A stretch of DNA of 64,000 nucleotides from Candidatus Endomicrobium embiratermitis (GTDB lineage: Bacteria; Elusimicrobiota; Endomicrobiia; Endomicrobiales; Endomicrobiaceae), in NCBI GenBank assembly GCA_009781315.1, contig WQYI01000009.1:1-64000 (forward strand), in the 5' to 3' direction. Each line of letters opens with the position of its first letter. The first letter of the stretch is position 1. Shown piece by piece: positions 10,140-62,947 of this stretch. The notes under the pieces are model-generated. The model saw nothing but the letters and a program-made list of their open reading frames with translations, was not told the origin of the DNA and did not search any database. The translations under genes and the position numbers were made by a program.

Positions 10140-10172
10140 GATGCATGGATGCATAGAGGCATAGATGCATGG
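10140..10172. repeat. Left arm of the CATGCATC-word element flanking the four-helix-bundle gene
   Basis: This is a tandem run of a degenerate 8-nt word (ATGCATGG, ATGCATAG, AGGCATAG, ATGCATGG). Its inverted partner lies at 10537-10572 on the other side of the gene. The same word builds the arms of the non-coding elements at 32685 and 44027. Confidence 0.8.
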
Positions 10173-10176
10173 TTTT

Positions 10177-10539
10177 TTAAGCTATATTTTTAAGCAGTTT
10201 GTTTCTTAAAGAATTTATACGCTTACCGAGAATTTTTATATTATTATGAATTGCGATTGTATTATTTATGTAATTTAGTTTTTCGCATATGTACAAAATA
10301 GCGTCAACTTCATTTAACGAAGATGATGATAAATTTAAAAAGTGAGCAAAATCTTTTGCAGAATGCCTGCACTTTCCTTCAGCTATGTTAAGCGAAACAG
10401 AGACAGATGCTCGTCTAATCTGAGATTTGAGATTATATTCCTCAGATTTTGGAAATTTATCCGATATAAAATAAATTTCTTTTATAAAACTTATAGATTC
10501 TTTCCAAATTTCCAGTTCTCTATACATTGTCTTTACCAT
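10177..10539 (-). CDS. Four-helix-bundle protein (S23/IVP and Avd-like family)
   Basis: The 120-aa product matches the family first seen as ORFs in intervening sequences of 23S rRNA genes and related to Avd of diversity-generating retroelements. Hallmarks are YRELEIWKESISFIKEIY at the N-terminus, FPKSEEYNLKSQIRRASVSV and LNIAEGKCR near residues 35-58, and FLNLSSSSLNEVDAIL near residues 68-84. The listed ATG at 10539 lies in the repeat arm; the next ATG at 10527 (MYRELEIW) also fits. The gene sits exactly between two inverted arms of the CATGCATC word, and the junction TGGTAAAGACAA at its 5' end is identical to that of the gene-free element at 44027. No reverse transcriptase is nearby. Its function is unknown; these proteins form oligomers and may bind RNA or DNA. 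Confidence 0.85.
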   Translation of the reverse strand: MVKTMYRELEIWKESISFIKEIYFISDKFPKSEEYNLKSQIRRASVSVSLNIAEGKCRHSAKDFAHFLNLSSSSLNEVDAILYICEKLNYINNTIAIHNNIKILGKRINSLRNKLLKNIA

Positions 10540-10572
10540 GCATCAATGCATCCGTGCGTCTATGCCTCTATT
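10537..10572. repeat. Right arm of the CATGCATC-word element flanking the four-helix-bundle gene
   Basis: On the minus strand the words are ATAGAGGC, ATAGACGC, ACGGATGC, ATTGATGC, then ATGGTAAAGACA. It starts directly at the stop codon of the DUF1844 gene and runs into the first codons of the four-helix-bundle gene. It is the inverted partner of 10140-10172. Confidence 0.8.
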
Positions 10573-16594: not shown

Positions 16595-18175
16595 TCACTT
16601 CTTTAGTCTCACCGCGTGGATTTGGAAAGGTTTAATTGCAAGAATGCTTGCGTCGGACTGGGAAGTCTGGTTTAAAAAATCTATTATTTCTTTTGAACGG
16701 GATACGGATATAAACTGAAATCCCCAGTTAACGGGATTTCCTCTTATATATTTCTGCGAAATTAAGAAAGACGAGTCATTTACGGGAATTTCCGCAATCA
16801 AAGACGGCCCGTCGTTTGTATGCCTGTACAACATAGCTTTATCGGGAAAAATTCTCAACGCATATTCCCAGCCCGAATCCGGAGTTAAAAACCCTTTGGT
16901 TCCGGAAAGCATCGACGTAGAACCCGCGCCCTCGATATTATTCATATCGATATACATATCGACGTATTCGGTTTTCGCATTCCACGCATCGTCGCCAAAA
17001 ACCATGCTGACTTTTATGGAACCGTCTTTTGAAATAATATCCGCCTCGCTCAAAATGCCGCTGTTTGTTATAGATATTCCGTCCGGTATTTCTGTTACGT
17101 TAGTACGGAAAGTTTCATCGCTTGCGGAATACAAACCGCTTTTTTCGGCAGACTGCTGGGTCTGGATAACTTTTTCTTTGTCCGAGAGAGACTCCTGCAA
17201 GCCCAGAAGCCGGGAAATATTACTATACGCCGCGTCGAACATTCTTACACTCGTAAGCTTGTTTTGAGCCACGCCTTTTAATAAGTCCGAACTGCACAGA
17301 TAAACAAGCTCGCTTTGCGCGCCTTTATAAGAATAATCGGTAAATTTTTTGGAATCTTTATAATCATTTATTAAAGACGCGGCCGCATATAGTTTAGACA
17401 TTATGCCGCTTTTAACCGAAATCTGCTCAAAAGAAACTGAATTATTTACGGCTATTAAATCTTTTTTAAGAGTCGTAATAAAAATAGGGACCGCGGGTTT
17501 TATATATTTGCTTTTGTCAAACATATCCGCCAAATAAGATATAAGCTCGTAATTATTTAAATGTTTTTTAGATAACAATACCGGTATAACGGATTGATTT
17601 TTTTTAGATTCAAGCCATTTCATAACTTTTTTTACGTCGCTTGGAAAATCCGTATGTAGCGAAAAAGAGTTTATTCCGTAAATATTATATACACCGTTAA
17701 ATTTTGGCTGAGCATTGCTTACGTTAATCCACGGCAAACTTAAACCCGAGAAATAATAAAGTAAATTATGCGAAACCACGCCGGAATTTAAAAAAATTCC
17801 GAACTGCTCTCTGTTTATGTTTTCCTCAAAACTGCTTATATTATTTACAATGTAATCGCCGAAAGCGCTGTTTTTGCCGGATTTTGAAATTCCGTTGCTG
17901 TAAACCGTGGCAAGAACAGGCAAAACCGGTTCCGGATCAAAAGACAGAGCCGGCTCGACTTTACCCCAAAAAGCAAGTTCTTCGAGATTTTCGGGCAATT
18001 TCTCCGACGGATTTACCGGAACGGATATGCAAAATCGTCTTGATGACAATATTCTGTCTATGACGTTTTGGGAAATATCGCTGCTTTCCGCAAAAAATAA
18101 TATATATCTTTCGCCCTCGCCAAAAGACAGACCTGCAAACAGTAATAAAAATAAAAGAGTTAGTATTTTTTTCAT
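16595..18175 (-). CDS. Secreted protein with C-terminal glucodextranase-type DOMON domain
   Basis: The 526-aa product begins with a signal peptide (MKKILTLLFLLLFAGLSFG). Residues about 375-525 resemble the C-terminal DOMON-like domain found after GH57 and glucodextranase enzymes, with VDMYIDMNNIEGAGSTSML and SGWEYALRIF. The N-terminal part contains FWGKVEPALSFDPEPVLPVL, reminiscent of GH57-like proteins, but I do not see the full catalytic set. It could be a periplasmic sugar-binding or degenerate hydrolase protein. It has no obvious operon partner. Confidence 0.6.
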   Translation of the reverse strand: MKKILTLLFLLLFAGLSFGEGERYILFFAESSDISQNVIDRILSSRRFCISVPVNPSEKLPENLEELAFWGKVEPALSFDPEPVLPVLATVYSNGISKSGKNSAFGDYIVNNISSFEENINREQFGIFLNSGVVSHNLLYYFSGLSLPWINVSNAQPKFNGVYNIYGINSFSLHTDFPSDVKKVMKWLESKKNQSVIPVLLSKKHLNNYELISYLADMFDKSKYIKPAVPIFITTLKKDLIAVNNSVSFEQISVKSGIMSKLYAAASLINDYKDSKKFTDYSYKGAQSELVYLCSSDLLKGVAQNKLTSVRMFDAAYSNISRLLGLQESLSDKEKVIQTQQSAEKSGLYSASDETFRTNVTEIPDGISITNSGILSEADIISKDGSIKVSMVFGDDAWNAKTEYVDMYIDMNNIEGAGSTSMLSGTKGFLTPDSGWEYALRIFPDKAMLYRHTNDGPSLIAEIPVNDSSFLISQKYIRGNPVNWGFQFISVSRSKEIIDFLNQTSQSDASILAIKPFQIHAVRLKK

Positions 18176-23399: not shown

Positions 23400-23419
23400 A
23401 GCCGTCTCCCTTTTAACTG

Positions 23420-23530
23420 CAGAGAATAGATAATAGAGTATAGAGAATAGCTAACGACAAAAACAAACTACTTTATTTTCCGGTCTTTCGCCGTATCTAT
23501 TCTCTTTTATCTATTATCTGTTATCTGTCG
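23420..23530. repeat. GAGAATA-word intergenic element (tsaC-like/glyA gap)
   Basis: The plus-strand arm reads GAGAATA, GATAATA, GAGTATA, GAGAATA and then GCTAACGACAA. The opposite arm is the inverted run GATAACA, GATAATA, GATAAAA, GAGAATA. The minus-strand edge starts at the stop codon of the gene upstream (TAAACGACAG). It has the same design as the other word elements with a different 7-nt word. Confidence 0.75.
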
Positions 23531-23531
23531 T

Positions 23532-24176
23532 TTATATGTATTTCAATATCTCATTCGTATCCAGACATCCTTTGCGAATTACAATGTAAGGAAATTTTAC
23601 CATATCTATAACCGTGGACTCAAAAGAAAATTCGCATTTGCCGCCGTCAACCATTACGTCCACAAGATTTTCAAATTTAAGAGTTTCTTCAAATTCTTTC
23701 GCGCTTTTTTCGCCCGACGAATTTACCGACGTAGTCCATAGAGGTTTTCCGATTTCTTTTAAAAGTTTTAACATAAAATCGTTATCCGGTATTCTTACGC
23801 CTAAATTGTCCCTGCCGCCGGACAAAATTTTCCCGAGTTCCGTAGTCGGAAATATCAAAGTAAGCTGTCCCGGCCAAAATTTTTTTGCTATTTTTAAAGC
23901 TTTCTCCGGGATATCCGCCAAGATTTTAACGCTTTCAATGTCGTATGTCATTATTACAAGCGGCTTTTTAAAACTTCTGCCTTTTATTTTATATATCATT
24001 TTCCGCGCTTCAATATTAAAAGCATCGGCGGCAAAACCGTATACGGTTTCGGTAGGAACTATCGCAACGCCGCCTTTTTTTATTATGTCAGCCGTTTGTT
24101 TATGAGAATTTTTATCTTTATGAGAAATTTTTATTGTTTTTTTCATGGTTGTTGTCGTTAACTCCTCACTCCTCAT
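23532..24176 (-). CDS. Threonylcarbamoyl-AMP synthase (Sua5/YrdC/YciO family)
   Basis: The 214-aa YrdC-domain protein probably makes threonylcarbamoyl-AMP for the t6A modification of tRNAs reading ANN codons. Signatures are AIVPTETVYGFAADAF near residue 40, IYKIKGRSFKKPLVIM near 62, and SVNSSGEKSAKE near 150. Two starts are possible. The ATG at 24176 has AGGAG six bases upstream, but both the site and the first ten residues (MRSEELTTTT) come from the repeat at 24147-24195. The ATG at 24146 (MKKTIKISHK) looks like the native N-terminus but lacks a well-spaced site. Confidence 0.88.
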   Translation of the reverse strand: MRSEELTTTTMKKTIKISHKDKNSHKQTADIIKKGGVAIVPTETVYGFAADAFNIEARKMIYKIKGRSFKKPLVIMTYDIESVKILADIPEKALKIAKKFWPGQLTLIFPTTELGKILSGGRDNLGVRIPDNDFMLKLLKEIGKPLWTTSVNSSGEKSAKEFEETLKFENLVDVMVDGGKCEFSFESTVIDMVKFPYIVIRKGCLDTNEILKYI

Positions 24177-30013: not shown

Positions 30014-30030
30014 TTTATAACTCCGTTATG

Positions 30031-30130
30031 GAAGTTGAGATGATGAGATGTTGAGAAGTTGAGAGGAGCTCAAGTCGTTAAAGTCTTTGCCTTTGCTCAT
30101 CTTCTCATCGTCACAGCTTCCCATCTTCTG
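30031..30130. repeat. GAAGTTGA-word intergenic element, copy 1 (rplQ/mreB gap)
   Basis: Plus-strand arm: GAAGTTGA, GATGATGA, GATGTTGA, GAAGTTGA. The core contains GTCTTTGCCTTTGCTC, and the other arm is inverted (CATCTTCTCATC ... CCCATCTTC). It almost touches the rplQ stop codon. Confidence 0.82.
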
Positions 30131-32149: not shown

Positions 32150-32237
32150 GAAGTTGAGATGTTGGGATGCTGAGATGCTGAGCAAAGACAAAGCCGTTAC
32201 CCACCTTCTCATCCTCTCATCTTCTCTACCTCTGTCT
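32150..32237. repeat. GAAGTTGA-word intergenic element, copy 2 (rpsK/rpsD gap)
   Basis: Arm words are GAAGTTGA, GATGTTGG, GATGCTGA, GATGCTGA. The core reads GCAAAGACAAAGCCGTTACC on the plus strand, so this copy is inverted relative to copies 1, 4 and 5. The far edge starts just after the rpsK stop codon with AAAGACAG. Confidence 0.8.
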
Positions 32238-32684: not shown

Positions 32685-32775
32685 GAAGTTTGGATGCATG
32701 GATGCATAGAGGCTTAAAAGCCTTACTTCTTTTGTCTTTGCCAAGCATCTATGCGTTTATTCCTCCAATCTTCTG
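32685..32775. repeat. CATGCATC-word intergenic element without gene (rpsM/rpsK gap)
   Basis: The plus-strand arm runs GAAGTTTG, GATGCATG, GATGCATA and on. The minus-strand core contains GGCAAAGACAAAAGAAG, and the far arm has CATCTATGCG and CAATCTTC. It uses the same word as the arms around the four-helix-bundle gene, mixed at the edges with the GAAG word. Confidence 0.78.
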
Positions 32776-34484: not shown

Positions 34485-34502
34485 TTTGAATCCTTCGGAT
34501 TC

Positions 34503-34603
34503 AGAAGCTTAGAAGCTGAGATGTTGGGAGGCTGAGCAAATACAAAGACTTTTTGCCGTTGTTGTTACTCAACTTCTCAGCTGCTCAACTTCCCATCTTC
34601 TGC
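34503..34603. repeat. GAAGTTGA-word intergenic element, copy 3 (adk/map gap), overlapping adk 3' end
   Basis: The plus-strand arm runs GAAGCTGA, GATGTTGG, GAGGCTGA. The core is GCAAATACAAAGACTTTTTG and then a CCGTTGTTGTTAC junction. The second arm extends into the adk coding sequence: the last residues KAEDGKLSS and the stop codon are written in the element's 8-nt words. Confidence 0.8.
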
Positions 34604-35227: not shown

Positions 35228-35244
35228 AAAAACCCTTTTAACTA

Positions 35245-35333
35245 CAATTAACAATTTACAAATAACAATTAACAGCGAAAAATCTTTTTATATTTATTTT
35301 TTAATTGTAAATTATTATTTGTCAATTGCCTTT
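35245..35333. repeat. AATTAAC-word intergenic element (secY/adk gap)
   Basis: The plus-strand arm CAATTAAC, AATTTAC, AAATAAC, AATTAACAGCGAA faces an inverted arm AATTGTAAATT ... TTTGTCAATTG. It fills the gap between the secY stop and the adk ribosome site. Confidence 0.75.
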
Positions 35334-38262: not shown

Positions 38263-38278
38263 CTAAAAACCTCTTATA

Positions 38279-38380
38279 GAAGTTGAGATGATGAGATGCT
38301 GAGAAGTTGAGAGGAGCTCCAGCCGTACAAGTCTTTGCCTTTGCTCATCTTCTCATCCTCCTGCCTTCCCATCTTCTGCA
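38279..38380. repeat. GAAGTTGA-word intergenic element, copy 4 (rplF/rplR gap)
   Basis: Arm words GAAGTTGA, GATGATGA, GATGCTGA, GAAGTTGA, then the core with CCGTACAAGTCTTTGCC and the inverted arm CATCTTCTCATC ... CCATCTTCTG. Same orientation as copies 1 and 5. Confidence 0.82.
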
Positions 38381-38994: not shown

Positions 38995-39007
38995 ATTAAT
39001 TCCTTTT

Positions 39008-39114
39008 CCAATTTACAATTAACAATTTACAGATTACAATTAACGACAACTTTCACTTAGTATTGTAACTACAAAATAATTTTTTATTTGTTAATTGTTA
39101 TTTGTTATTTGTCT
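39008..39114. repeat. AATTAAC-word intergenic element (rpsH/rplF gap)
   Basis: On the minus strand the rpsH stop is the TAA of TAAAGACAAATAAC, followed by AAATAAC, AATTAAC and AAATAAA. The opposite arm on the plus strand ends with CAATTAACGACAAC. Both shared edge motifs are present in this copy. Confidence 0.8.
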
Positions 39115-39510
39115 TTACCAAACGTATCCTATAACTTCTCCGCCGATTTTATCTTTTCTGGCCTGTCTGTCGGTCATCAAACCTTTCGATGTTGAGACTA
39201 TAGTGACGCCGAGACCGCCTACTGTTTTCGGCATTTCTTCATAACCTTTGTATATTCTCAAACTTGATTTTGAAACCCTTTTTATGCCTTGAAGAACGGA
39301 CTTACCTTCAGCCGTGTACTTAAGATAAACTCTTAAAACGCCCTGTTTATGGTCCTCAATGCTTTTGAAGTTTGCGATATACCCTTCGTCTTTCAAAATT
39401 TTAGCGATTTCCACTTTTAATTTTGCCGACGGAACATCGACTTTTTCGTGAAGCTTCGCGTTCGCATTGCGAATGCGCGCAAACATATCTGATATCGGAT
39501 CTGTAATCAT
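39115..39510 (-). CDS. rpsH: 30S ribosomal protein S8
   Basis: The 131-aa protein begins [20 protein letters not shown] and ends [10 protein letters not shown], with [17 protein letters not shown] before it. S8 binds 16S rRNA early in assembly. Its stop codon forms the edge of the following repeat element. Confidence 0.97.
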
Positions 39511-39720: not shown

Positions 39721-39736
39721 TCATTTCCTCTTTATA

Positions 39737-39838
39737 GAAGTTGAGATGATGAGATGTTGGGAAGTTGAGAGAAGCTCCGGCCGTAAAAGTCTTTGCCTTT
39801 GCTCATCTTCTCATCATCCAATCTTCCCACCTTCTGCC
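39737..39838. repeat. GAAGTTGA-word intergenic element, copy 5 (rplE/rpsN gap)
   Basis: Arm words GAAGTTGA, GATGATGA, GATGTTGG, GAAGTTGA, then the core (minus strand) GGCAAAGACTTTTACGGCC and an inverted arm. The minus-strand reading starts AAAGGCAGAAG a few bases after the rplE stop. It includes an ATGAGCAAAGGCAAAGAC stretch that could encode MSKGKD. Confidence 0.82.
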
Positions 39839-39848
39839 TTTATTTTAT

Positions 39849-41162: not shown

Positions 41163-41186
41163 TTTACTGTCCTTTTTTTTTAAACT

Positions 41187-41339
41187 ACAAAGTGCAAAGT
41201 GAAAAGCACAAAGTGAAAATATTGTGCGGGCTATGCCCGCGATATTTAGCCAACTTGGATTCCGATTTTCATCGGAATGACGGCTTTTTGCCGTTGTCGT
41301 TATTTTAACTTTTAACTTTTAACTTTCAACTTTGTCTTT
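41187..41339. repeat. Composite AAAGTGA-word element with nested palindromes (rplN/rpsQ gap)
   Basis: The plus-strand arm AAAGTGCAAAGTGAAAAGCA leads to the palindrome GCGGGCTATGCCCGC. A GTCATTCC-type half (GGATTCCGATTTTCATCGG) follows, then the junction seen on the minus strand as AATAACGACAACGGC and the inverted arm. The minus-strand edge AAAAGACAAAG begins at the rpsQ stop. Here two repeat classes are joined. Confidence 0.75.
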
Positions 41340-41340
41340 T

Positions 41341-41604
41341 TTACTCAGCCTGCGTTTTGCTTATAACTTCGACCAACACCCATTTCTTGGTTTTAGAAAT
41401 CGGTCTTGATTCCATTATTTTAACCGTATCGCCTATACGCGAAACGTTCTTTTCATCGTGAACCGCATATTTTCTTTTTGTGCGAAGCACACGGTCATAC
41501 AAAGAATGGCGGTATGTCCTTGAAACGGAAACCATTCTTGTTTTATCGCTTTTATCGTTTACAACCACGCCTGTACGAAATGTACGTTTTCCACGTTCAG
41601 CCAT
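41341..41604 (-). CDS. rpsQ: 30S ribosomal protein S17
   Basis: The 87-aa OB-fold protein begins MAERGKRTFRTGVVVNDKSD. I chose the ATG at 41604 because GGAAGGA lies just upstream; an ATG at 41628 would add eight untypical residues. It has SRTYRHSLYDRVLRTKRKY, and it binds 16S rRNA. Confidence 0.97.
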   Translation of the reverse strand: MAERGKRTFRTGVVVNDKSDKTRMVSVSRTYRHSLYDRVLRTKRKYAVHDEKNVSRIGDTVKIMESRPISKTKKWVLVEVISKTQAE

Positions 41605-41624
41605 TTTTCCTTCCCATTTTAACT

Positions 41625-41731
41625 GCAATTGATAATTAACAATTGATAATTAACAATTTTTAACTACTTAGTATTTACTTCATTTTATTGTTACTTGTCA
41701 TTTGTTAATTGTTAATTGTCATTTGTTATTT
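41625..41731. repeat. AATTAAC-word intergenic element (rpmC/rpsQ gap)
   Basis: The plus-strand arm CAATTGAT, AATTAAC, AATTGAT, AATTAAC faces an inverted arm TTGTTAATTGTTAATTGTCA. It overlaps the rpmC 3' end, so the rpmC stop codon (in AAATAACAAATGAC) is part of the word array. Confidence 0.78.
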
Positions 41732-41917
41732 GCTTTTAAGCAACGTTTTTATTCTTGCTATATCTCTTCTCAGCCCTCTTATTTCAAGAGGGTTTTTCAC
41801 AGGCGCCGCAGAGTGGCGGAACTTCAACTTAAACAGTTTATCCTGCGCGTCGTTGAGTTTTACGGAAAGTTCCGAGTCCGACATAGTTCTCATTTCCTGC
41901 CAATGTTTGCTTTTCAT
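41726..41917 (-). CDS. rpmC: 50S ribosomal protein L29
   Basis: The 63-aa helical protein has DSELSVKLNDAQDKLFKLKF and ends IARIKTLLKSK. L29 sits by the peptide exit tunnel, near the signal recognition particle and trigger factor site. The last codons merge with a repeat element. Confidence 0.96.
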   Translation of the reverse strand: MKSKHWQEMRTMSDSELSVKLNDAQDKLFKLKFRHSAAPVKNPLEIRGLRRDIARIKTLLKSK

Positions 41918-44026: not shown

Positions 44027-44124
44027 GAAGCTTGGATGCATGGATGCGTAGATGCGTAGAGCAGCTCTGACCGTATAAGTCTTTGTCTTTACCATGCGTC
44101 TATGCGTCTAAACTTCTATGCATC
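44027..44124. repeat. CATGCATC-word element without gene (rplB/rpsS gap)
   Basis: On the minus strand TAGACGCA, TAGACGCA, TGGTAAAGACAAAGACTT is followed by ATACGGTCAGAGC and the inverted arm TACGCATC, TACGCATC, CATGCATC, CAAGCTTC. The TGGTAAAGACAA junction is identical to the start of the four-helix-bundle gene unit at 10537, but here only about 30 bases separate the arms. Confidence 0.85.
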
Positions 44125-47156: not shown

Positions 47157-47277
47157 GTTTTCAATCCTGTTTGTTTTTTTACTTTTTGTACTGCTATCGT
47201 TAAATAAAGTTTGTGTCGCCAGACTAGTAACGTTTCCGTTACGACGACGCCCCGCCAGAGGCTAAACTTTGCTAACT

Positions 47278-47399
47278 GCAAAGTGAAAATTGAAAAGTGG
47301 AAAGTGGAAATATTGTGTTTTCACTTCGTGAAAATTCATTACCTGTTTCGGCAAAGCCGAAACTCAACATCTTCACTCTTCACTTTTAACTTTGTCTTT
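47278..47399. repeat. AAAGTGA-word intergenic element with inner palindromes (tuf/rpsJ gap)
   Basis: The plus-strand arm AAAGTGAAAATTGAAAAGTG precedes palindromes TTTTCACTTCGTGAAAA and GTTTCGGCAAAGCCGAAAC. The inverted arm then follows. The minus-strand edge TAAAAGACAAAGTT begins immediately after the tuf stop codon. Confidence 0.78.
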
Positions 47400-47401
47400 T
47401 A

Positions 47402-48601
47402 TTATTCAACTATTTCTGTTACTACTCCCGAACCTACCGTTCTTCCGCCTTCTCTTATCGCAAATCTCAACTGCTTCTCCATCGCCACAGGCATTATCAA
47501 TTCTATATCCATCGTTATATTATCTCCCGGCATCACCATCTCTACTCCCGAAGGCAAATTCGCTACTCCGGTTACGTCCGTCGTTCTGAAATAAAACTGT
47601 GGTCTATAACCATTGAAAAACGGCGTGTGTCTTCCGCCTTCTTCTTTTGTCAACACATACACCTGTCCCTTAAACTTCTTATGCGGCTTTATGCTTCCGG
47701 GCGCTGCTATTACCTGACCTCTTTCTACCTGATTCTTTTCTATTCCTCTCAGCAGCATCCCTATATTGTCTCCTGCCTGCGCGTCGTCAAGCAGTTTTCT
47801 GAACATTTCTATTCCAGTTACTACAGATTTCCTCGTTTCCTGTATCCCGATTATTTCTACGTTCTCACTTACTTTCACTTTTCCTTTCTCTACTCTTCCC
47901 GTTGCTACTGTTCCTCTTCCCGTTATCGAAAATACGTCTTCCACGCTCATCAAAAACGGTTTATCTACGTCTCTTGCAGGAAGCGGTATTGTTTCATCTA
48001 CCGCGTCCATTAATTTCATTATTGAATCTACACCTTCTTTGTCTCCCTGCAACGCTTTAAGCGCAGAGCCTCTTATTACTGGCGTTTTGTCTCCGGGAAA
48101 ATTATATTTCGTAAGAAGGTCTCTGACTTCCATTTCTACCAAATCCAACAAGTCTTTATCATCAACTGCGTCGCATTTATTCAAAAACACTACTATTGAA
48201 GGCACATTCACCTGTCTTGCAAGCAATATATGTTCTCTTGTCTGAGGCATCGGGCCGTCAAGCGCACTCACAACAAGTATCGCTCCGTCCATCTGCGCTG
48301 CTCCCGTTATCATGTTCTTTACATAGTCGGCATGTCCGGGGCAGTCTATATGCGCGTAATGTCTTTTTTCCGTTGAATATTCCACGTGCGATACTGCTAT
48401 CGTCACGATTTTCGTATCGTCTCTTCTTCCCTGGCTTTCAGATGCTTTCGCTACCTGATCGTACGATATGTACTGCGCCAACCCTTTATCGCCTAACACT
48501 TTTGTTATTGCCGCGGTCAACGTTGTTTTGCCGTGGTCCACGTGTCCTATTGTTCCTACGTTTACATGCGGTTTCGTTCTATCAAACTTTTCTTTTGACA
48601 T
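47402..48601 (-). CDS. tuf: Elongation factor Tu
   Basis: The 399-aa GTPase delivers aminoacyl-tRNA to the ribosome. G1 is [10 protein letters not shown] near residue 19, G3 [11 protein letters not shown] near 81, and G4 NKCD near 136. [20 protein letters not shown] opens domain 2. Only one copy is in the window. It is 39 bases downstream of fusA. Confidence 0.98.
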
Positions 48602-53667: not shown

Positions 53668-53735
53668 ACATACCTCTTTATTTTATTTCTTATGACTTAA
53701 AATAAACTGCTTCTTAAAAATCCGTTGTTTTTAAT

Positions 53736-53822
53736 TTATTCAATTAACAATTTACAAATAACAATTAACAAATTTTATCAGACTTTGCCTCAATTGTAAA
53801 TTGTCAATTGTTAATTGTTATT
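53736..53822. repeat. AATTAAC-word intergenic element (rpsL/rpsG gap)
   Basis: The plus-strand arm CAATTAAC, AATTTAC, AAATAAC, AATTAAC is followed by a short middle, then an inverted arm AATTGTAAATTGTCAATTG. The rpsL stop codon (AAATAACAATT) lies inside the array. Confidence 0.8.
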
Positions 53823-54201
53823 TTGCGGCGGCTTTTGCTTTTTTAGCTCCGTACTTGCTTCTGCCCTGTTTTCTTCCGTCAACACCCGTAGTATCTAAAG
53901 TCCCTCTGATAATATGATAACGCACGCCCGGCAAATCTTTCACGCGTCCGCCTCTTATAAGAACAAGCGAATGCTCCTGAAGATTATGGCCTACTCCGGG
54001 AATATACGATGAAACTTCATATCCTGAAGTAAGTCTTACCCTTGCGACTTTCCTTAAAGCCGAATTCGGTTTTTTAGGAGTCGTAGTATAGACTCTTGTG
54101 CACACGCCTCTTCTCTGCGGACAATCTTTAAGCGCAGGAGCTTTTGTTTTTTTGATTAAGTCTTTTCTTCCGTCTGCAATCAACTGGTTAATCGTTGGCA
54201 T
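53818..54201 (-). CDS. rpsL: 30S ribosomal protein S12
   Basis: The 127-aa protein has [20 protein letters not shown], with wild-type lysine at the streptomycin-relevant site, and [17 protein letters not shown]. It acts in decoding. The stop codon is part of a repeat arm. Confidence 0.97.
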
Positions 54202-62907: not shown

Positions 62908-62947
62908 TTCTGATGCATAGATGCGTAGATGCACGGATGCATAGCTA
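62908..62947. repeat. CATGCATC-word half element (rplL/rpoB gap)
   Basis: GATGCATA, GATGCGTA, GATGCACG, GATGCATA: a single array of 8-nt words with no inverted partner. It ends near the hairpin at 62966. Confidence 0.75.

Follow-up and report, generated by a model that had tools for sequence, protein, structure and literature searches.

The closest described relatives of the element analysed here are the intervening sequences (IVS) of 23S rRNA genes, found in Coxiella burnetii and Leptospira. The Coxiella IVS, 428 nt in length, contains an S23 ORF preceded by GACAGAT heptamers in strain-dependent copy number, and its terminal inverted repeats form a 28-bp stem; mobility has been suggested for elements of the IVS type, which have been called selfish (PMC4990558). 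A second comparison is the REP/RAYT system (REPtron), in which one gene, encoding an HUH/Y1 transposase, lies between inverted repeats and many gene-free copies of the repeat, a single palindrome, are present in the same genome. Short words also occur in other described repeats. The STRR and the trnL intron P6b repeats of Nostocales have 7-nt words and hairpin arms, the former being intergenic and the latter located in an intron stem, and the accessible parts of those descriptions draw no link to an S23 gene (PMC2670836, PMC4476775). The TAACTGA repeats of Beggiatoaceae are likewise intergenic tandem 7-nt words suspected of mobility, but they are direct repeats with a single inverted case, and the terms "S23" and "four helix" are absent from the text (PMC4679880). 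Lastly, the Avd protein of diversity-generating systems (DGR), which works with a reverse transcriptase, shares a superfamily with the S23 protein. A search of the open-licence literature found no paper in which S23 genes outside rRNA are connected with inverted arrays of words.

In this study, we analysed a 64-kb stretch of DNA from Candidatus Endomicrobium embiratermitis (the window), in which an S23 gene lies between inverted arrays of an 8-nt word. The whole unit (10140-10568, ~430 bp) consists of an arm, the S23/four-helix-bundle gene and an inverted arm:

10140-10171, plus strand: outer-left arm, downstream of the S23 gene; four 8-nt words, GATGCATG GATGCATA GAGGCATA GATGCATG
10177-10539, minus strand: four-helix-bundle gene (S23 / 23S rRNA IVP), with the gene end at 10177
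10527-10538, minus strand: TGGTAAAGACAA, the junction of arm and gene, common to the gene-free copy at 44027
10537-10568, minus strand: outer-right arm, upstream of the S23 gene and inverted relative to the left arm; four 8-nt words, CATGCATC AATGCATC CGTGCGTC TATGCCTC

An earlier note on this DNA had described the gene as framed by inverted word arrays, and the two arms do form a 39-nt inverted pair, 79% complementary and 361 nt apart. The protein matches PF05635 at 4.3e-32 (110.9 bits, curated cut-off 33.8) and TIGR02436 at 3.3e-31 (107.7 bits, cut-off 24). The S23 A1 profile matches the solved structure 2gsc at 1.5e-36, and 2rld is also a structural relative; the S23 protein is a helical bundle, and its solved relatives have five chains per entry. 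Translation from the ATG at 10539 gives MVKTMYRELEIW, and the start in relatives corresponds to the ATG at 10527 (MYKxLEIW). The gene is on the same strand as both neighbouring protein genes, which we take, by eye from their sequences, to be DUF1844-like and FMN-reductase-like. The unit thus resembles the 23S rRNA IVS in its protein family, length, inverted termini and tandem short words, but the IVS is known only inside 23S rRNA genes, whereas the window gave no Rfam match and the unit lies between two protein genes and not in a 23S rRNA helix.

A detector that is independent of any given word, searching for inverted arms with a period of 7 or 8 nt, identified 15 elements in the window and none in three shuffles of it; the window therefore holds several word families, with GATGCATR, GAAGTTGA/GATGATGA, AATTAACAA, AAAGTGAA and GAATAGATA coexisting. 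Many of the elements are located in short gaps of what we presume to be ribosomal-protein operons (30-48 kb). The arrays are listed below with the state of the site in three congeneric species (G001, G002 and G003) that align to the window at ~70-92%; gene-free elements are given without a strand:

23415-23537: gene-free element, GAATAGATA words; other words at the site in G001 and G003, none in G002
30025-30129: gene-free element, GAAGTTGA/GATGATGA family; S23-bearing partner word in G003 (L046)
32150-32235: gene-free element, GATGCTGA family
32685-32775: gene-free copy, GATGCATR family; site without a copy in G003
34497-34602: gene-free element, GAAGCTGA family
35238-35330: gene-free element, AATTAACAA family; resembles the arms of the S23 gene at C4:32251 (L003)
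38278-38365: gene-free element, GATGATGA family; orthologous copy with drifted words in G003 (junction 38275)
38996-39120: gene-free element, AATTAACAA family
39730-39841: gene-free element, GATGATGA family; site essentially empty in G002
41176-41343: gene-free element, AAAGTGAA words with inner hairpins; S23-bearing partner word in G002 (L056)
41623-41739: gene-free element, AATTAACAA family; site without an element in all three congeners
44027-44124: gene-free copy, GATGCATR family; site (junction 44022) empty in G003, other word in G002
47266-47402: gene-free element, AAAGTGAA words
53735-53828: gene-free element, AATTAACAA family
62912-62943, plus strand: one-armed GATGCATR array

The copies at 32685-32775 and 44027-44124, which the earlier note had read as gene-free elements with the same arms as the unit, are real, and the second shares the 5' junction of the gene as had been claimed, with ATGGTAAAGACAA present in both. 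The word GATGCATNGATGC, with one mismatch at most, has 126 matches in the 1.90-Mb genome compared with 3 for a reversed control, so chance is excluded; the 100 matches listed fall at 49 separate places. All three S23 genes of this genome are located between inverted arrays, each with a different word. The word of the second (TTACGAATT type) has 56 matches versus 8 for its control, with gene-free copies elsewhere, and that of the third (AATAACAA type), judged by eye, is similar to gene-free elements present in the window. Words that have no S23 partner here are paired with one in sister species (GAGATGTTGG in L046 of G003 and AAAGTGGAAAGTG in L056 of G002). Within one genome or strain, many gene-free elements carry copies of the word of an S23 unit. 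Some elements are compound, with AAAGTGAA or GAGTGAAG arms around short hairpins (GCGGGCTATGCCCGC, GTTTTCGCATAGCGAAAAC), as at 41176-41343 and 47266-47402 of the window and at 6580-6708 of L086.

The suggestion that GGYAAAGAC in the cores of gene-free copies is a decayed start of the gene did not survive. The motif is also found beside unrelated words on the 3' side of a gene (L002), as well as beside arrays of another word in another family of the order (L037), and it therefore looks like an arm-junction motif.

The association of S23 genes with inverted flanks extends well beyond this genus. The test set comprised 127 S23 genes for which 120 nt of flank was available on each side; 48 were taken from relatives of this genome and 79 from named genomes (Bacteroidota, Clostridia, Planctomycetes, Chloroflexi, Paceibacterota, Proteobacteria and others). 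Each gene was scored by aligning its upstream flank locally to its reverse-complemented downstream flank and taking the best match. The median score was 28, compared with 15 for 266 neighbouring ORFs (Mann-Whitney p=2e-31), and a score above 21 was reached by 70% of the S23 genes and 4.5% of the neighbouring ORFs, in agreement with the expectation that homologous genes would be flanked by arrays; the 79 genes were chosen by similarity to the subfamily of the window gene, so the 70% figure applies to that subfamily. On sides with a clear period, it was 7 nt on 115, 8 nt on 29 and another value on 2; the word is 8 nt in the window unit and 7 nt in most relatives. The S23 gene lay a median of 55 nt beyond the upstream stop codon. 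The window unit belongs to a class that is widespread over many bacterial phyla. Approximately 30% of the S23 genes have no clear arms, including a probable DGR Avd (L059) and a longer subfamily (L095, L096 and L097; ~165 residues, MKxERFEDVPVWKD), which is possibly a settled, non-mobile form. An rRNA context was considered for the genes with weak arms, but none was found at the 20 other S23 loci scanned, which included such genes. Carriage by phages was likewise rejected, as a search of 50,697 phage records with the S23 protein gave no match.

Array density was compared in sampled stretches of 16 genomes with an S23 gene (737 kb) and 13 without (516 kb). Gene-free elements numbered 22 in the former, in seven of the 16 genomes, and one in the latter, which bears out the expectation that such arrays are rarer where the gene is missing; the contrast is modest and phylogenetically uneven, most of the 22 coming from the window's genus and G028, and the Fisher test by genome (p=0.044) treats species that are not independent. 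Several of the S23-bearing genomes had no gene-free array in the stretches sampled. The single exception among genomes without the gene was G004, whose assembly is only 84% complete. As controls, the detector gave one match with periods of 5 and 6 nt and two with periods of 9 and 10 nt. These results support a link between array density and the S23 gene, although they are not proof of one.

Comparison of orthologous junctions within the genus revealed considerable variability in what occupies them: a gap may hold an element with another word, a drifted copy or nothing. Three species each have a word of their own at the junction at 23410, where the fourth has none, and the junction at 41618 is filled in this genome only among the four species compared. 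The site of the window unit itself has an S23 gene with an internal deletion plus another word in G001, and other insertions in G002 and G003. In G003 (C13, ~17430-17975; L082), hairpin insertions of the ATTGCGGATCAAGTCCGCAATGAC / CTCGCAATGACGACAACGGCA type are present in the same gaps, on both sides of the DUF1844-like gene. This variability bears on the reading of the arrays as regulatory repeats of the host, i.e., hairpins that stabilise or terminate transcripts or couple translation, as has been proposed for STRR of cyanobacteria and TAACTGA of Beggiatoaceae (PMC4679880). Such a function would suit their intergenic, operon-internal placement, and STRR have been proposed as stabilizing or coupling elements (PMC2670836), but occupancy of one junction varies among close relatives, orthologous sites carry different words and the S23 gene inside the arrays is left unexplained. 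We regard this reading as very improbable.

The clearest record of movement was obtained from plasmids of Nostocales. Plasmid C of Trichormus variabilis has a 428-bp insert directly after a TAA stop codon, composed of left arm, S23 gene and right arm, whereas the site is empty in plasmid2 of Nostoc linckia, the flanks of which are 98.9% and 98.3% identical to those of plasmid C. GTAAT is present on both sides of this insert, but a target duplication is not constant, being unclear at other sites. The insert is also present in Scytonema, where its left arm is shorter by two words. Further filled/empty pairs are Calothrix versus Tolypothrix at an integrase junction and Nostoc edaphicum versus Calothrix between the two ribonucleotide reductase genes. 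Within Nostoc ATCC 53789, pNsp_a is filled and pNsp_b empty, and pNsp_c has another S23 element one gap further. Within Nostoc C052, gene-free elements with CAGGAGTCAGAATT words are located at one junction of pC052_A and pC052_B; in pC052_D that junction has no element and an S23 unit with the CAGGAGTCAGAATT word is in the next gap. With the C052 region as query (L263), homology to Trichormus, Aulosira and Scytonema, at unrelated sites, starts and stops at the arms (~640-1057). The gene is therefore inserted together with its two arms, typically immediately behind a stop codon and ahead of the following operon gene, and the earlier proposal of a mobile unit with ORF-less derivatives is upheld by the filled and empty sites and by homology that ends at the arms. 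As for the constant terminal inverted repeats and fixed-length target-site duplication that define a MITE, a motif picked by eye after the fact, and weak for that reason, was matched at 25 of 96 element ends against ~4 expected.

Other loci of these plasmids illustrate the range of settings. An S23 element lies between cas6 and cas4 in Anabaena sp. 90 plasmid pANA02 (L262, 686-1054), where the Dolichospermum gap has a different insert; another separates the beta and alpha genes of ribonucleotide reductase and runs against the direction of the two (L266, 701-1069); and pC052_E has a decayed unit in which the first part of the gene is kept and the remainder is deleted up to the next gene (L274).

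These data also dispose of plain slippage or assembly artefact, with the gene present by coincidence, as a full explanation. Slippage does occur, since the near-identical alleles L267 and L279 have left arms that differ by two whole words. However, the filled and empty sites refute it as the sole cause, and the flank scores of the 127 genes and the multi-copy word families also stand against it, so that we consider it scarcely credible.

The question of what moves the element brings back the RAYT/REP analogy of the earlier note, which holds for the layout but not for the machinery. A RAYT is an enzyme and a REP a single palindrome, whereas the gene analysed here specifies a helical bundle for which no catalysis is known, and its repeats are variable words arrayed in tandem. 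Y1 genes were found in 16 of 31 relatives, and the S23 protein has no known catalytic site, so the arrays could be moved by a RAYT/Y1 protein, an IS transposase or an integrase, the S23 gene riding along for some benefit to the host. Our survey of motors covered Y1 and RVT_1. No Y1 match was found in G002 (a single contig) or G003, both of which have arrays and S23 genes. The RAYT-like Y1 gene of this genome (L280; G000, C1:61500-64700) has no two-sided array at its locus and is flanked by its own inverted GGGGACGTTGTTTTTGACAC palindromes, which are unrelated to the word arrays. As array density also follows the S23 gene, a passenger role for this gene appears improbable. RVT_1 was not found in any of the four species of the genus (G000-G003), which sets the element apart from DGR Avd; a weak Avd-like PF05635 match without arms in G028 (L059, C20), with a reverse transcriptase ~1 kb away, is probably part of a DGR. 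RAYT and reverse transcriptase were thus rejected as the motor, being absent or unrelated, which, within the survey of Y1 and RVT_1, leaves S23 as the only gene constantly linked to the arms.

The S23 gene is under purifying selection (dN/dS ~0.1); values were 0.07-0.16 in six diverged pairs, several with high dS, and in the near-identical pair L267/L279 the changes are too few for an estimate. This differs from the Coxiella IVS, whose protein is apparently not made (PMC4990558), and the intergenic S23 units also differ from the rRNA IVS in being present in many copies, with gene-free derivatives and demonstrated presence/absence. At orthologous junctions the S23 protein is often 60-80% identical, and the gene between the arms is often inherited vertically. 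Across 23 pairs at orthologous junctions, the arms within an element scored higher against each other than orthologous arms did between species (27.3 vs 21.6, p=0.015, an optimistic value as the pairs overlap). Words are common to both arms, but their order can differ between the arms of some elements; a position-by-position pairing of word variants, sought by eye in several elements, was not seen, and order can be swapped.

Likeness of the two arms could also be expected if the element acts at the RNA level, the arms folding the transcript into a stem that is cut by RNase III and the S23 protein binding or protecting the RNA, with mobility being incidental or old. In Coxiella, RNase III removes the IVS at the stem formed by its inverted termini (PMC4990558), 99 of 120 S23 genes are co-directional with both neighbours, and one gene-free copy folds at -59.8 kcal/mol. 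However, among arm mismatches in 93 elements those of the G-U type (127) and A-C type (141) are equally frequent (p=0.43), so RNA pairing is not visibly selected in the sense strand, and with no G-U excess it was rejected as the force keeping the arms alike. Moreover, the unlike word order between the arms of some elements does not suit a paired transcript, and the recent clean insertions require a DNA step. An RNA-level element is thus unlikely, though less so than the other alternatives.

We consider it probable that the window unit is an intergenic, mobile form of the IVS elements, that its movement takes place in DNA and that the S23 protein acts on its arms. Since no catalytic centre was recognised in S23, we infer, with similar confidence, that the protein binds the hairpins and that host enzymes perform the chemistry. 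According to this proposal, S23 would bind the hairpin arms at the DNA level and promote their copying or insertion by host replication or repair enzymes, acting in cis on the unit that encodes it and in trans on gene-free copies. Turnover of the words might result from slippage during replication of the periodic hairpin and from fold-back template switching within it, processes that would add, lose and swap words between arms. Stop-start junctions in operons may be favoured because insertion there would spare both neighbours and provide transcription. More tentatively, and at somewhat less than even confidence, these units may represent an autonomous class of elements in many phyla, whose sole gene, a non-enzymatic-looking helical bundle of the S23/Avd fold, drives DNA-level movement of short-word hairpins whose arms rewrite their word together, with the 23S rRNA IVS, STRR and TAACTGA repeats as its descendants. 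The STRR, P6b and TAACTGA repeats resemble the gene-free elements, and a common origin with them is a proposal, made for STRR and P6b because the S23 elements of Nostocales plasmids have heptamer arms.

Our findings provide a setting for S23/four helix bundle proteins, one of the commonest "unknown" protein families of bacteria, and give the 23S rRNA IVS an intergenic and still mobile relative. They would also tie heptamer repeats that have lacked an explanation (STRR, possibly TAACTGA) to a gene. The filled/empty plasmid pairs from culturable Nostocales make the element testable now. If S23 is the mobility factor, the element would be mobile with no recognised recombinase of its own, and the turnover of its arm words would offer an example of concerted evolution in an inverted repeat that is easy to follow.
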